In this document: positions 1,287 through 55,476 of the stretch, in pieces | Numbering within the stretch: position 1 is the stretch's first letter | Layout of the letters: each line of letters starts with the position of its first letter | From: Methanosarcinales archaeon Met12 | GTDB lineage: Archaea > Halobacteriota > UBA148 > JAJOKI01 | DNA length: 64,000 nt | Reading direction: 5' to 3' | NCBI GenBank assembly: GCA_002813105.2 | Contig: CP017966.2 | Location: 186,001-250,000, forward strand | Notes under the pieces: generated by a model | Seen by the model: the letters and a program-made list of their open reading frames with translations, nothing else | Told to the model about the DNA's origin: nothing | The model's database searches: none | Translations under genes and position numbers: made by a program

Positions 1287-1553
1287 TTACTGAGTGAACA
1301 TCCTAAAATGCGGTTTTCCAAACTCCTTTTCCTGCAAAAACCGCACGGCATCGCCGGCCTTGCGCTCGTCGTCAACGCGTGCATAAATCCGCATTTTAGA
1401 TACGAGCACCTTTTGTCCACAAGGGCATGCCCGCGTCTTCTGGCCTTCTTTGGCATCGAAAATATTTCTATGAAATATTTTCTTAAGAAGATATCCTTTG
1501 GATATCTTCGAAATAAATCGCCTGCAATCGCTGCACCTAATCACCAAATACAT
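1287..1553 (-). CDS. DUF1922 zinc-ribbon protein with a hairpin-encoded insertion
   Basis: About 88 residues. MYLVIRC at the start, CPCGQKV in the middle and the helix VDDERKAGDAVRFLQEKEFG match the small archaeal DUF1922 family (structure known for MTH1184), which carries a rubredoxin-like zinc site; its function is unknown. Family members run from the first cysteines almost directly into the second pair, but here about 18 residues (ISKGYLLKKIFHRNIFD region) intervene. They are encoded by two tandem DNA palindromes. The start chosen is the ATG that gives the family N-terminus; it overlaps the end of polB by 17 nt, so the two genes are coupled. Confidence 0.75.
   Translation of the reverse strand: MYLVIRCSDCRRFISKISKGYLLKKIFHRNIFDAKEGQKTRACPCGQKVLVSKMRIYARVDDERKAGDAVRFLQEKEFGKPHFRMFTQ
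1458..1509. repeat. Two tandem mini-palindromes inside the DUF1922 gene
   Basis: Positions 1458-1482 form an 11-bp perfect stem with loop TAT (GAAAATATTTC and its complement). Positions 1487-1509 form a 10-bp perfect stem with loop TTT (GAAGATATCC and its complement). Only four bases separate them. They keep the reading frame of the gene. The second stem is the same sequence, with one mismatch, as the hairpin at 31418-31440 downstream of tRNA-Tyr. Confidence 0.85.
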
Positions 1554-4044
1554 CAAACGTTGCCTGTTTTGGCCCCCCATTCAACTCGACGTCAGAATGC
1601 CCAAAGTGGTTAAGTATCCGTGATGTAGCGGGGATCAATTGATTATTGATATAATATTCTGCATCAATCCTATCTCTCTTATCATCATCAGTATATAGAT
1701 ATCCATCTTCATATTTTTTGAATATATCGACTGGATATGCTCTATCCCCGATGCTGCCGGATCCCTTGACTACCACGTACGCTACTTTCGTCCCTACCTC
1801 TATCGGTATTTTTGCCCTTTTTGCCGCCCTTACATGCGCCTGTATCGATTCATAGCTGGATATTTTTTTAGTCAAAGTTTTGTATATCACGAGCTTTTCC
1901 AAGGGTACTTTTCCCCTCTTGACCTGCTGCACGATGCTCTGGACCAATCGTACCGCTTTAGCCGGGTCCCTTTCCCCGAGTATCACTTCGACCACCTGGG
2001 CCTGGGTTTCCTTTGCCAGAGCACACCAATCCCCCCTGCGGACTTCCAGTCCCTTAATAACGATCTCGCCATCCGCGGTGAGGCCTGCGTAGCGCTTCTT
2101 CTTCTCGGTGAAGAATATCACTTCATAATAGTTATCGATGTCCAGTTCCAGGGGGAGTTCCCTGGATATGGCATCTGAAAACTCCTTTGCGAGTCTTACA
2201 ATATCTCCATCCTTTTTTATAAACAAACTATCGGTATCTCCGTACAGCACCTCAAGCCCCATTTCCTCGGCCTTCTGAATGGCCTGCTTGATAAAGTGGC
2301 GCCCCCATGCAGTGGTCGCCTCTGCGCATTCCTTACGGTACCAGCGGGCTGCAGACCAGCCAGTATACCCATAAAACGCATTAGTGAGTATCTTGATGGC
2401 TTTTTGGCGGATATCGAGCAATTGATATTCATATGTGTCCCTGTCGTATCTCGCAAGTTCGCGTTTCAATTTATTACGCTTGGCAACCAGGTCCTGAAGA
2501 ATCCGTTTGAAGAAACCGTCTGGCTTTTTCCGAAACTTATATCCAACCTCTGGCGCCTCAAAGAATTCATCGCCATCTGCTATTACAGTATCCGGCGATA
2601 TGTTGAATGATATCATTATCGATGGATACATCGCTGAAAAGTCCAGACATACCACGTTTTCATGTATGCCTTTTTTCGGTTCGAGAACGAAACCGCCAGC
2701 ATATGGCGCACCGACTTCCCTCTTAGAGGGCACCAGTTCTCCTATTTTATATGCCTCATTACTCAAAAACGATTCTACCTGGCGCCCACGTCCCATCTTT
2801 GATACCTCATCCAGCGGTTGCCTGCTCATTCTCGCGAATTCATATTGCAGCGGGAGCATCTTTTCCGCTATTGCGAGCGTACTATTTACATCATCTCTGG
2901 CATATTCGAGAAGGGTCTTGCGCTTTTCAGGGTCTTCCCAGTACTGATGTATCTTTGATGCAGGTAAATTGACGCGCTCGGATTTTTTCATTACGCCCAG
3001 AAAATCCGCAACGTTTTCCAGTGTCTTGACCTTGACACTGCCCAAGTCCCTGTCAACGACACGGTATAAATCGACGTTAAGTCTGCCAGCAATGGAGACT
3101 TTCCCAGGAATGCCAGGCCGAAGCTGTGGGGTACTTCCATCCCTCCCCATCTTGAGCGGAATTTTAGCAAGTTCTGCGCGGTGCAAGAGATACGGCCAAT
3201 CAAAGTTGTCCGAATTGTAACCGCATATCACGTCTGGATTAACATCACGTATAAAATCAATAAACTCTCTGATGATAGATGGTTCGTCCTTGGATGTAAG
3301 CAATTTAACGTCGCCACGATTCGTCGCCACTCCTATAATGATGATTGGATCGCGCTCCTGGCTCGGCATGCCATGGGGGTTTATCATCTCACAATCGAAC
3401 GCCATTATTCGTAGATCTGGGTTTCCCTCTCTCTTTTGCGGCTTAACCTCGCTCGCCTCAAGCGCATACTCTGCATACTCGATGTCGATCGGCTTTCCCT
3501 GCACGACGATGCCATCCATGGGCGCCAGACCATGATCGATGATATACCTCACCGCAAACAGCACATCTGCTTCCCTGACATCCAGACCAAGAGCATCAAC
3601 GGCTTCACGCAGACTTGGCACGTGCTGAGGATGCCCTACGATTATTTTAAAAGCCTCAACCTCTTTCCCAAAATCCCTCCTTTTGACGGTCTCAACTCGT
3701 TTTGGAGATATCGTCTCACCATATCGCATTGCCCTGACCGCCATAATATCGTCGGCACTTCTGTTTTCTGACCTAAATCTGTGGTTGGGAGCAGCCACCG
3801 CATAGAAATACGGCTCAAAGTTTGGGTCAAAAACGACCGCATTTCTCCCCTGCTCGTCCTTGCACCAGAGCCTGATTACAGCTTTACCTCCCTTATCGGA
3901 AATCGAAGATTTTCCGACTTGTTGTAATTCTGAAGGAATTTCAACACCGATTAAATCTGAAGATTTAGACGGAGTTGGCAATCCCTTTGGGATTTCAACA
4001 GTCACATAATCGACGTCGAGCAACCAGCCCCTGAGTTGATTCAT
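1537..4044 (-). CDS. polB: DNA polymerase, family B
   Basis: An 835-residue replicative-type polymerase with proofreading. Exonuclease motifs are Exo I FDCE (D217, E219), Exo II YNSDNFD (D282) and Exo III YARDD (D385). Polymerase motifs are A DFSAMYPS (D468), B KILTNAFYG (about 551-559) and C YGDTDS (D603, D605). The N-terminal strand RGWLLDVDYVTV should continue directly into GGKAVIRLWCKD as in other archaeal PolB proteins, but residues about 17-52 are an in-frame insertion. This insertion consists of two related repeats that both begin VEIP and is encoded by four DNA hairpins. All catalytic residues are intact, so the enzyme should work. The DUF1922 gene overlaps its 3' end. Confidence 0.96.
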   Translation of the reverse strand: MNQLRGWLLDVDYVTVEIPKGLPTPSKSSDLIGVEIPSELQQVGKSSISDKGGKAVIRLWCKDEQGRNAVVFDPNFEPYFYAVAAPNHRFRSENRSADDIMAVRAMRYGETISPKRVETVKRRDFGKEVEAFKIIVGHPQHVPSLREAVDALGLDVREADVLFAVRYIIDHGLAPMDGIVVQGKPIDIEYAEYALEASEVKPQKREGNPDLRIMAFDCEMINPHGMPSQERDPIIIIGVATNRGDVKLLTSKDEPSIIREFIDFIRDVNPDVICGYNSDNFDWPYLLHRAELAKIPLKMGRDGSTPQLRPGIPGKVSIAGRLNVDLYRVVDRDLGSVKVKTLENVADFLGVMKKSERVNLPASKIHQYWEDPEKRKTLLEYARDDVNSTLAIAEKMLPLQYEFARMSRQPLDEVSKMGRGRQVESFLSNEAYKIGELVPSKREVGAPYAGGFVLEPKKGIHENVVCLDFSAMYPSIMISFNISPDTVIADGDEFFEAPEVGYKFRKKPDGFFKRILQDLVAKRNKLKRELARYDRDTYEYQLLDIRQKAIKILTNAFYGYTGWSAARWYRKECAEATTAWGRHFIKQAIQKAEEMGLEVLYGDTDSLFIKKDGDIVRLAKEFSDAISRELPLELDIDNYYEVIFFTEKKKRYAGLTADGEIVIKGLEVRRGDWCALAKETQAQVVEVILGERDPAKAVRLVQSIVQQVKRGKVPLEKLVIYKTLTKKISSYESIQAHVRAAKRAKIPIEVGTKVAYVVVKGSGSIGDRAYPVDIFKKYEDGYLYTDDDKRDRIDAEYYINNQLIPATSRILNHFGHSDVELNGGPKQATFDVFGD
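3897..3999. repeat. Array of four mini-palindromes inside polB
   Basis: Four consecutive short inverted repeats: 3897-3916 (CGGAAATC, loop GAA, GATTTTCCG), 3922-3944 (TTGTAATTC, loop TGAAG), 3947-3972 (12-bp stem with two mismatches around TAAATCT, loop GA) and 3974-3999 (GTTG..AATCCC, loop TTT). The array is two copies of a two-hairpin unit of about 54 nt, which explains the two VEIP repeats in the protein. The third hairpin with its flank is nearly identical to the one at 38816-38842. Confidence 0.85.
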
Positions 4045-31160: not shown

Positions 31161-31375
31161 CCCGCCTTAACTCAGTCTGGTAGAGTGCGCGGCTGTAGTT
31201 TGATGGTGTTGAAATCCCTTCGGGCGAAGATGGTCTTTGATCATCTTCTGAAGAAAACACTTCTGCGAAGTGTTTTCGATTACAACTCTCCCAGTTCTTC
31301 GAACTGGGACATGTGCATGGCACGCATTACCGCGCAGATACCGCGATGTCCCCGGTTCGAATCCGGGAGGCGGGA
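31161..31375 (+). tRNA. tRNA-Tyr (anticodon GTA) with a 141-nt intron
   Basis: Acceptor CCCGCCT pairs with AGGCGGG and the discriminator is A. C1:G72 is the archaeal tRNA-Tyr identity pair. The D arm is ACTC..GAGT, anticodon stem CGCGG/CCGCG with loop C-T-GTA-G-A, T arm CCCGG TTCGAAT CCGGG. The exons are 31161-31198 and 31340-31375. At the junction CTGT pairs with GCAG, leaving 3-nt bulges AGT and ATA on opposite strands, a proper bulge-helix-bulge for the splicing endonuclease, cutting at position 37/38. Confidence 0.95.
31199..31339 (+). other. tRNA-Tyr intron filled with mini-palindromes
   Basis: The 141-nt intron, much longer than the usual 15-60 nt, contains three strong hairpins in a row: GAAGATGGTC-TTT-GATCATCTTC (9 of 10 pairs), GAAAACACTTC-TGC-GAAGTGTTTTC (11 of 11) and TCCCAGTTC-TTC-GAACTGGGA (9 of 9). 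A partial fourth, AATCCC-TTC-GGG, starts the series. No protein frame is likely. These belong to the same palindrome family as those in polB and the DUF1922 gene. Confidence 0.85.
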
Positions 31376-31404: not shown

Positions 31405-31529
31405 GACTCCGCAAGGCGAAGGTATCCGAAGGATATCTTCTGAACGAAGGTTGCATAACCAACCCTCTGAATAAAATATTCCTATGGAGTACTTTGAAGT
31501 CGAGGATAGCGAATGTAGGATGCGGAGTC
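31405..31529 (+). other. Structured element or ncRNA candidate between two tRNAs
   Basis: GACTCCGCA at 31405-31413 and TGCGGAGTC at 31521-31529 are perfect complements and would close a 125-nt domain. Inside are the mini-palindrome GAAGGTATCC-GAA-GGATATCTTC (31418-31440), GGTTGCATAACC and GAATA-AAA-TATTC. It is not a tRNA (no T arm). It could be a small RNA co-transcribed with the tRNAs, a processing stem, or a composite of inserted palindromes. Confidence 0.5.
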
Positions 31530-53533: not shown

Positions 53534-55476
53534 TAATTAAGAGAGCGAAAGAAAATCCAATACTAACACCTTTGAACGCCCATGCTTGGGAAGCCCAGGC
53601 TGTCTTTAATGGTTGCCCTGTTCAAAAAGATGGAGAAATTTACATTTTATATCGAGCAATTTCTTTGCCTTATTATCATACCGCCAGCCGGGCTAACATA
53701 ATGACTTCTGATATTGGTATTGCTGAAAGCAAAGACGGGATTCATTTCACAAATCGGCAACGATTTATTGTTCCGGAATACGATTGGGAAAAATTTGGTT
53801 GCGAAGACCCCCGAGTAACAAAACTTGATGGAAAATATTATATTTTTTATACCGCCCTCTCCGAGTATCCGTTTAGAACCGAAGGCATTAAAGTTGGTTT
53901 GGCTATCAGCAAGGACTTAAAAAAGATTGAAGAAAAACATTTAGTCACCCCTTTTAACGCCAAGGCAATGGCTCTTTTCCCAGAAAAAATAGGAGGAAAA
54001 ATGTGGGCTATACTTACAGTTCATACTGATAAACCTCCTTCAAAAATATGTCTTGCCTCTTTTGCTAAAGAAGAAGACATTTGGTCTGAAACTTATTGGC
54101 AGAAATGGTATGACGTTTTTGAAAAATACTCTTTACCTTTACAGCGCAAACCCGAAGACCATATTGAAGTTGGCGCTCCGCCATTAAAGACAAAATACGG
54201 CTGGCTTTTGCTATATTCCTATATCCGTAATTATTTTTCTCCTCAAAAACTCTTCGGGGTAGAAGCAGTTTTACTTGACCTCAAAAATCCCTTAAAAGTT
54301 ATTGGCAAGATTGATGCCCCGATTTTAGTGCCAGAAGAGTACTATGAAAAAGTAGGCCTTGTGCCAAATGTGGTTTTCCCTTCAGGAGCAATAATTTTAC
54401 CCCCCCACCAAAAATTTTGTAGTGGGGGCAAAGAGGACTGGATTCACCTTTATTATGGAGCAGCTGACACCACCTGCTGCCTCGCTTTTATAAATCTTTC
54501 TTTTTTGTTAGAAGAATTATTAGGTAAAAATAAAGCAGTCACCTTGAAGCGGGCCAAGGAAAATCCGATTATTACTCCCGAGAAAAAACACCCCTGGGAA
54601 AGCAAGTCCGTTTTCAATCCTGCGGCTATTTGTCTTCAAGGGAAAGTTCACATTGTGTATAGGGCAATTTCAGAAGACAATACCTCTGTTTTGGGCTATG
54701 CATCAAGTAAAGACGGGATTCATATTGATGAACGTTTGTCGCAACCGATATATGTCCCTAGAGAGCCATTTGAGCAGAAACTTCAACCAGGAGCCGGTTC
54801 TGGTTGCGAAGACCCTCGACTTACTAAAATAGATGAGAAGATCTACATCTGCTACACCGCCTTTGATGGAAATCTTCCGCGAGTAGCTTTAAGTTGGATT
54901 TGGGCAAAAGATTTTCTCGAAAAGCAATGGAATTGGGCAAAGCCAGTGCTTATTTCGCCAGCTGACTTAAACGATAAAAATGCCTTTGTTTTTCCAGAGA
55001 AGATAAACGACAAATATCTGATTGTTCATCGGGTTGGTTATGACATTGATTATTCTTTCTGCCAGACTTTAGATTTTAAAGGTGATGTTTTTCTTGAAGA
55101 GCAACGTTGGATATATAGGAGGAAAGGGTGGTGGGACAGTAAAAAAGTAGGGGCTGCTGCCCCGCCCATAAAAACAAAAGAGGGATGGATTATGCTCTAC
55201 CACGGTATTTCAGAAGATGGCGTTTATAGAGTAGGGGCCGTGCTTTTAGACCTTAAAAACCCGCTTAAAATCCTCGGTCGCACCAGCAATCCTATTCTTG
55301 AGCCAGAAACTCCCTATGAAAAAAAGGGGTTGGTTCCCAATGTTGTTTTTCCCTGCGGCAATGTGGTCTTGGATGATAAACTTTTCGTCTATTACGGAGG
55401 CGGTGATAAAGTAGTGGGGGTTGCGACCATCGAATTGGCGGACCTGCTTGCATATCTTAAACTGTGCAAATGCTAA
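53530..55476 (+). CDS. Tandem two-domain GH130-type protein
   Basis: A 648-residue fusion of two GH130 propellers. Domain 1 (about 1-335) has RAKENPILTPLNAHAWEAQA and FGCEDPRVTKLDGKYYIFYTA; domain 2 (about 340-645) has RAKENPIITPEKKHPWESKS and SGCEDPRLTKIDEKIYICYTA, each ending in a blade with a VFPSGA or VFPCGN motif. With the preceding gene this makes three related propellers in a row, probably from serial duplication. A+T-rich like its neighbour. Target is likely a mannoside or surface glycan. Confidence 0.85.
   Translation: MIIKRAKENPILTPLNAHAWEAQAVFNGCPVQKDGEIYILYRAISLPYYHTASRANIMTSDIGIAESKDGIHFTNRQRFIVPEYDWEKFGCEDPRVTKLDGKYYIFYTALSEYPFRTEGIKVGLAISKDLKKIEEKHLVTPFNAKAMALFPEKIGGKMWAILTVHTDKPPSKICLASFAKEEDIWSETYWQKWYDVFEKYSLPLQRKPEDHIEVGAPPLKTKYGWLLLYSYIRNYFSPQKLFGVEAVLLDLKNPLKVIGKIDAPILVPEEYYEKVGLVPNVVFPSGAIILPPHQKFCSGGKEDWIHLYYGAADTTCCLAFINLSFLLEELLGKNKAVTLKRAKENPIITPEKKHPWESKSVFNPAAICLQGKVHIVYRAISEDNTSVLGYASSKDGIHIDERLSQPIYVPREPFEQKLQPGAGSGCEDPRLTKIDEKIYICYTAFDGNLPRVALSWIWAKDFLEKQWNWAKPVLISPADLNDKNAFVFPEKINDKYLIVHRVGYDIDYSFCQTLDFKGDVFLEEQRWIYRRKGWWDSKKVGAAAPPIKTKEGWIMLYHGISEDGVYRVGAVLLDLKNPLKILGRTSNPILEPETPYEKKGLVPNVVFPCGNVVLDDKLFVYYGGGDKVVGVATIELADLLAYLKLCKC

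Follow-up and report, generated by a model that had tools for sequence, protein, structure and literature searches.

The tRNA-Tyr gene of the archaeon Met12 contains a 141-nt intron that very likely combines the ordinary short, bulge-helix-bulge-type intron of its lineage with a mobile insert in the apical stem-loop. The insert consists of a unit that we call E1, interrupted by a second unit, E2. As a whole, we are fairly confident in an explanation in which E1 and E2 are mobile DNA similar to the Rickettsia palindromic elements (RPEs), tolerated in tRNA genes through splicing and in protein genes through frame neutrality. Sequence comparison demonstrated an empty site, dispersed families with compensatory changes, a motif shared by the insertion sites, no visible target duplication, and further copies, some in other tRNA introns and some in frame within housekeeping genes.

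The genome (G000) is a single contig of 1,067,436 bases, and according to the accessible text of its description, Met12 is Candidatus Serpentinarchaeum aceticum (Methanocellales), represented by a circular MAG from the serpentinizing springs of The Cedars (PMC11176372). The window analyzed here is a stretch of 64,000 nucleotides (G000:C1:186001-250000). With introns allowed, ARAGORN called tRNA-Tyr(gta) (anticodon GUA) at 31161-31375, confirming the gene and the 141-nt intron that an earlier note had read from the DNA. Exon 1 (31161-31198, plus strand; ARAGORN and spliced fold) runs through G37, the intron (31199-31339, plus strand; ARAGORN, relatives, and constrained fold) combines a 36-nt ancestral intron with a 105-nt insert, and exon 2 (31340-31375, plus strand; ARAGORN and constrained fold) starts at A38, placing the intron at position 37/38. 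After intron removal, the predicted fold is a standard cloverleaf. Both ARAGORN without introns and Rfam missed the gene, giving tRNA-Asp only, and no second tRNA-Tyr was seen in a whole-gene DNA search of the genome, which returned one full-length match. The intron is indeed unusually long, as the note had remarked; its 141 nt fall outside the range of 11-129 nt stated for archaeal tRNA introns in the accessible part of PMC4090602.

The splice junctions had been described as a proper bulge-helix-bulge, and this held for one half of the structure. Judged by the criterion of a 4-bp helix between two 3-nt bulges, in a fold constrained to contain the anticodon stem, the 3' splice side was canonical (a 3-nt bulge, AU^A, adjoining a 4-bp helix), whereas the 5' splice side was relaxed, without a perfect bulge-helix-bulge. 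The 5' side was relaxed alike with or without the insert, and equally so in the tRNA-Tyr of the sole same-genus genome (G001). The 105-nt insert occupies the apical stem-loop and leaves the splice-site helices untouched. A splicing endonuclease is encoded in the genome (PF01974; two domains within one 385-aa frame).

To look for an empty site, we compared the whole tRNA-Tyr gene with 60 relatives. In G001, query bases 1-55 and 158-224 are adjacent, with a 3-base overlap, and the intervening block is missing. Under the exon definition of the window, the G001 intron is 36 nt long, and 141 nt equals 36 plus 105 nt (ARAGORN itself reports 25 nt rather than 36 for G001, because it places the 3' site earlier). 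A scan of 19 loci in relatives yielded tRNA-Tyr at 13, where the introns called by ARAGORN measure 22-56 nt and all lack the 105-nt block; five of the remaining six were without a call, and the sixth (L032) was a mis-called tRNA-Asp. Long, structured tRNA-Tyr introns of unrelated sequence, which the earlier note held would point to an ancient functional intron, were not found at the 13 called loci.

The architecture of the insert emerged when dispersed copies were read side by side. E1 is a 51-nt unit made of two hairpins (A, 26 nt; B, 25 nt), and E2 is a 54-nt unit of two hairpins that, in tRNA-Tyr, interrupts hairpin A of E1. A covariance model of E1 (R1), trained on 16 copies that excluded the one in tRNA-Tyr, aligned to 31207-31311 (plus strand) from its first to its last position (1-51 of 51), treating E2 as inserted sequence (57.8 bits, E 2.8e-12). 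This composite, with E1 termini TGT...ACA, is the block missing in G001. The left part of E1 (31207-31224, plus strand), recognized by comparison with other E1 copies, holds the 5' arm, the loop, and part of the 3' arm of hairpin A; the right part (31278-31311, plus strand), recognized by the E1 model match and the G001 comparison, holds the end of hairpin A and all of hairpin B. Between them lies the E2 double hairpin (31225-31278, plus strand; boundary ambiguous by one G), with perfect 11-nt arms at 31253-31263/31267-31277. The E2 model (R2) matched 31225-31279 at 80.8 bits, a score for a training-set copy: R2 contains three sequences only, its three best matches are those sequences, and E2 statistics are weak. 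Weak E2-like hairpins (R2 14-27 bits; strand unassigned) also lie between tRNA-Tyr and tRNA-Asp, at 31408-31498. The note had described at least three strong hairpins of one dispersed family. Strong hairpins are present; their actual number is four, two from E1 and two from E2, and they reflect nesting of E2 in E1 rather than three independent insertions of the same family. An exact repeat search of the window did not pick up any E1/E2 hairpin as a direct repeat, since the stems diverge in sequence but keep their structure.

The stems of E1 covary: 96.9% of stem cells were paired versus 86.7% in shuffles, and a shift of the pairing by one base reduced this to 37%. Seven pairs changed on both sides, with 27 double-change cells versus 7.3 in shuffles. 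Searching the Met12 genome with the E1 model gave 41 matches at E<=0.01 and 33 at E<=0.001. Across the order, seven out of 11 genomes had matches at E<=0.001 (G000 33, G001 14, G003 8, G008 7, G007 6, G009 4, G005 3), counted as matches that include half units and array neighbors and not as independent insertions; the same search found none in the four genomes of genus g2. Under stricter filters, seven out of 392 genomes in a phylum sample had E1, all from this order, and all nine matches to an E1 pattern in public genomes were Methanocellales MAGs. E2 was detected in three out of 11 genomes of the order (E<=0.01, three-sequence model), with several places matching both strands. A viral origin of E1 was considered and rejected, the pattern having 0 matches in IMG/VR viral contigs. 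Elsewhere in the order, two loci on one G003 contig (L123 and L127, G003:C26) have E1 copies nested in another hairpin family, relatives of which form tRNA introns elsewhere (G009 tRNA-Asp, L032).

We proceeded to examine the host flanks of full-length E1 copies, after removing hairpin-module neighbors and two duplicate sites (unfiltered n=34). The flanks had A at +7 in 26 out of 27 copies, A at +6 in 22 out of 27, G at +5 in 19 out of 27, and T at -7 in 23 out of 29 (uncorrected binomial p of 7.8e-14, 1.1e-8, 2.6e-7, and 6.0e-9, respectively). The empty tRNA-Tyr site of G001, TTTGATGG^TGTGTAA, has both T(-7) and A(+7), with TAA and not GAA at +5 to +7; the right flank in Met12 now reads TGTGCAT, with T at +7, so that only the G001 empty site fits at this position. 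Judging from this empty site and from conserved codons in TiaS, the motif bases belong to the host. E1 itself begins with TGTTGAA and has T at -7 from its 3' end, and by reading, junctions, including those within A|A and B|B arrays, show T(-7)...A(+7). The recurrence of the motif at all junctions (host|A, A|A, B|B, and B|host) suggests one putative junction-reading enzyme, possibly working via an RNA intermediate that tRNA splicing sets free. E1/E2 could represent a new kind of mobile DNA, in which hairpins of ~25 nt, single or paired, enter T-N6^N4-GAA-like sites duplication-free, consist of whole codons and can thereby colonize essential proteins, and have tRNA introns as a splicing-protected niche, an idea that we put forward only tentatively.

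REP/BIME elements and prokaryotic MITEs are short hairpin repeats with tandem and nested arrangements, and REP elements are moved by transposases of the Y1 family (TnpA-REP). E1/E2 could accordingly be non-autonomous elements of the MITE/REP type that depend on a classical transposase, encoded on another replicon or by an IS that is now extinct. In general terms, this agrees with how small they are, with their symmetrical ends and hairpins, with the nested and tandem copies, and with the patchy distribution; Y1 transposases are present in three relatives (G007, G008, and G002). However, Y1 (PF01797), the sole transposase family searched, had 0 matches both in G000, which has the most copies, and in G001. 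Moreover, if TGT is taken as the start of E1, comparison with the G001 empty site shows no duplicated target at tRNA-Tyr, and the lack of E1 pattern matches among IMG/VR contigs also weighs against this origin, which we regard as possible but doubtful. Unlike REP/BIME elements and MITEs, which they resemble as short tandem and nested hairpin repeats, E1/E2 have in-frame intragenic copies, a host without a Y1 transposase, and no target duplication seen.

Tyr is not the only tRNA with an element in its intron. ARAGORN was run on 73 loci (L079-L151), of which 55 had been fetched as E1 matches and 18 as E2 matches. E1-family copies were found in the introns of tRNA-Lys(CTT) (anticodon CUU; 295 nt) and tRNA-Ala(TGC) (UGC; 130 nt) of Met12, and in that of tRNA-Thr(TGT) (UGU; 84 nt by ARAGORN) of G001. 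Three out of 33 E1 matches in Met12 thus lie in tRNA introns, compared with 0.08 expected against the whole genome. Against non-coding DNA alone the excess is weak (P 0.008-0.024; 0.05-0.11 without Tyr), with a non-coding share assumed at 10%-15% and some intron lengths rounded; E1 is not shown to favor tRNA introns above the rest of the non-coding DNA.

A T-arm pattern search returned 35 sites, and an ARAGORN scan of the 30 fetched as loci extended the view to other long introns of Met12. Introns composed of other hairpin modules were found in Gly-TCC (366 nt), Arg-TCT (303 nt), Gln-CTG (227 nt), and Met-CAT (128 nt). Gln-TTG was called with a 178-nt intron and an over-long mature product (the intron is probably nearer 200 nt), Thr-TGT had 120 nt, and Lys-TTT, printed by ARAGORN as tRNA-Stop, had 96 nt. 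Calls of 790-nt introns were dismissed as artefacts spanning neighboring tRNA genes. The long introns (L189, L202, L193, L209, L187, L025, L013) carry tandem hairpin modules with 85%-98% identity between tRNAs, shared for example by Gln-TTG and Gly-TCC (130 nt, 97.7%), Arg-TCT and Thr-TGT (81 nt, 96.3%), and Arg-TCT and Gln-CTG (76 nt, 94.7%). E1 and E2 account for only part of the tRNA-intron expansion in this genome, as many long introns carry other modules. At least six Met12 tRNA genes (Tyr, Ala-TGC, Lys-CTT, Gly-TCC, Arg-TCT, and Gln-CTG) are missing from the Rfam list, a warning for annotators.

Such sharing raises the alternative of intron transposition: the hairpins would have moved from one tRNA gene to another as introns, through reverse splicing or gene conversion, and copies elsewhere would be secondary. 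The modules at 85%-98% identity would fit, as would the large-scale tRNA intron transposition reported for Thermoproteales in the accessible part of PMC4033280, where, as in the other long introns of Met12, sequences are shared across different tRNAs. However, what tRNA-Tyr shares is the insert only, neither the intron nor its splice sites: among the long introns compared, the one in Lys-CTT gives the longest match, and those 34 nt are E1 itself. E1 junctions do not coincide with splice junctions at tRNA-Tyr, nor at the G001 tRNA-Thr, most E1 copies lie outside tRNA genes, and the site motif is also found around copies in proteins and intergenic DNA. Spread as introns is therefore very improbable here. 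Unlike the Thermoproteales introns, the tRNA-Tyr intron is ancestral, its apical insert alone appears mobile, and the insert family also occurs outside tRNA genes.

We discovered that E1 also resides in open reading frames of Met12, namely those of LeuRS, thymidylate kinase (Tmk), TiaS, an asparagine-synthase-type protein, an Endo_dU/DUF99 protein, and DNA polymerase B. Within the window, an E1-family copy lies in frame near the N-terminus of PolB (gene at 1537-4044, minus strand; Pfam DNA_pol_B) at 3894-3946 (minus strand; R1 37.7 bits), with a second, adjacent copy in the same reading frame at 3958-4000 (minus strand; R1 24.8 bits), and an E2 copy lies in frame inside an open DUF1922 reading frame (Pfam PF09082) at 1456-1510 (minus strand; R2 80.1 bits, a training-set copy). 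A further E1 copy, upstream in a T2SSE ATPase frame of Met12, is less sure, its start codon being unplaced. According to Pfam, hosts in relatives include Elp3, CobQ-type, Trm1, and DUF362 proteins; carbamoyl-phosphate synthase, a host in G001, was named by sequence reading only.

Comparisons with insert-free proteins delimit several of these copies. The alignment of TiaS to the solved TiaS breaks exactly between residues 326 and 327, where there are 33-34 extra residues. Relatives of Tmk are without the E1 insert, as is the LeuRS of G001 (88% identical), in which the net difference is 42 nt and not 51, so a small local change probably accompanied or followed the E1 insertion. The lengths of 51, 54, 102, and 105 nt are all whole codons. 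By reading, a stop normally closes two out of the six frames of the E1 consensus; the other four are open, subject to the bases at variable stem positions. Not every insertion is harmless: in G003, an E1 copy within a PIN-like frame contains, by reading, a TGA that is in frame (L110 1501-1551, G003:C28:48516-48566; also L067). The earlier proposal that the intron is a safe harbor for the element largely stands. It agrees with the G001 empty site, the dispersed family, and the three further tRNA introns with E1; it needs correcting in that tRNA introns are not the sole harbor, E1/E2 units being present in frame in essential protein genes.

The note had also raised the possibility that the excised RNA is itself functional, and the intron could be a structured RNA (for example, one guiding the modification of tRNA-Tyr, or a stable circle) whose hairpins are kept by selection. 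In its favor, the precursor folds strongly (-94.1 kcal/mol versus a shuffle mean of -68; z -5.64; 0 out of 200 shuffles equal), archaeal tRNA-Trp introns are known to carry box C/D RNAs (PMC4090602, accessible part), and positions 31199-31253 give a sub-threshold match to the C/D-box family sR55 (13.2 bits versus a gathering threshold of 35, E 1.9). However, neither the tRNA-Tyr of G001 nor that of any of the 13 relatives with a call has the block, and no Rfam family reached threshold; a guide RNA (H/ACA or C/D) in the intron was rejected for want of a covariance match above threshold. Furthermore, E1/E2 units are found in unrelated protein genes, E1 occurs in both orientations relative to its host protein gene, and therefore no common RNA role is needed. 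A functional RNA is accordingly very improbable. In common with the tRNA-Trp introns (PMC4090602), the tRNA-Tyr intron is long, structured, and at the canonical 37/38 position; unlike them, where RNA guides methylation, it owes its structure to a dispersed insert specific to the lineage, for which no guide match was obtained. E1 and E2 look like DNA parasites that would bring the tRNA no benefit, the excised intron RNA being a by-product.

Our preferred explanation, mobile DNA tolerated by its hosts, envisages the following course. A 51-nt E1 would have inserted into the apical stem-loop of the ancestral tRNA-Tyr intron, and the 54-nt E2 would have become nested within E1. A putative trans-acting enzyme would copy or move hairpins into T-N6^N4-GAA-like sites, and selection would remove most insertions. 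Those in tRNA introns outside the splice helix would be tolerated because the splicing endonuclease discards them, and those in proteins because the unit lengths are whole codons and most E1 frames are open; copies in protein genes would be translated through.

The closest parallel is provided by the RPEs, protein-coding palindromes described from Rickettsia (PMC10969869). As described in the accessible part of that source, they share with E1/E2 a small size, dispersed palindromes in frame in unrelated housekeeping genes, and several families per genome. Unlike RPEs (~150 bp), E1/E2 are archaeal, measure 51 and 54 nt, and have modular hairpins, a clear site motif, and tRNA-intron copies; they seem to work like RPEs, a likeness with which we claim no family membership. 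A literature search on palindromes in archaeal genes and repeats in archaeal tRNA introns, covering mostly titles and the starts of abstracts with subscription journals largely outside it, found no description of E1/E2, and the accessible main text of the Met12 paper (PMC11176372) has no mention of tRNA, intron, repeat, palindrom, transposase, or hairpin. We thus describe an RPE-comparable element in a genome-reduced archaeon, occupying a tRNA-splicing niche as well as proteins. The case shows how mobile DNA can be taken up by RNA genes that are both essential and single-copy, and tRNA splicing appears to let DNA parasites inhabit an indispensable gene. The empty site and the insertion-site motif make mobilization testable.

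Finally, we noted two other sets of repeats in the window. A 67-nt direct repeat (30149-30215/31048-31114, 82% identical), which includes an inverted repeat, lies upstream of tRNA-Tyr and is possibly another palindromic family. Two direct-repeat pairs at 53704-54861, ~1 kb apart and 72%-74% identical, lie inside one 648-aa reading frame, suggestive of an internally duplicated protein.
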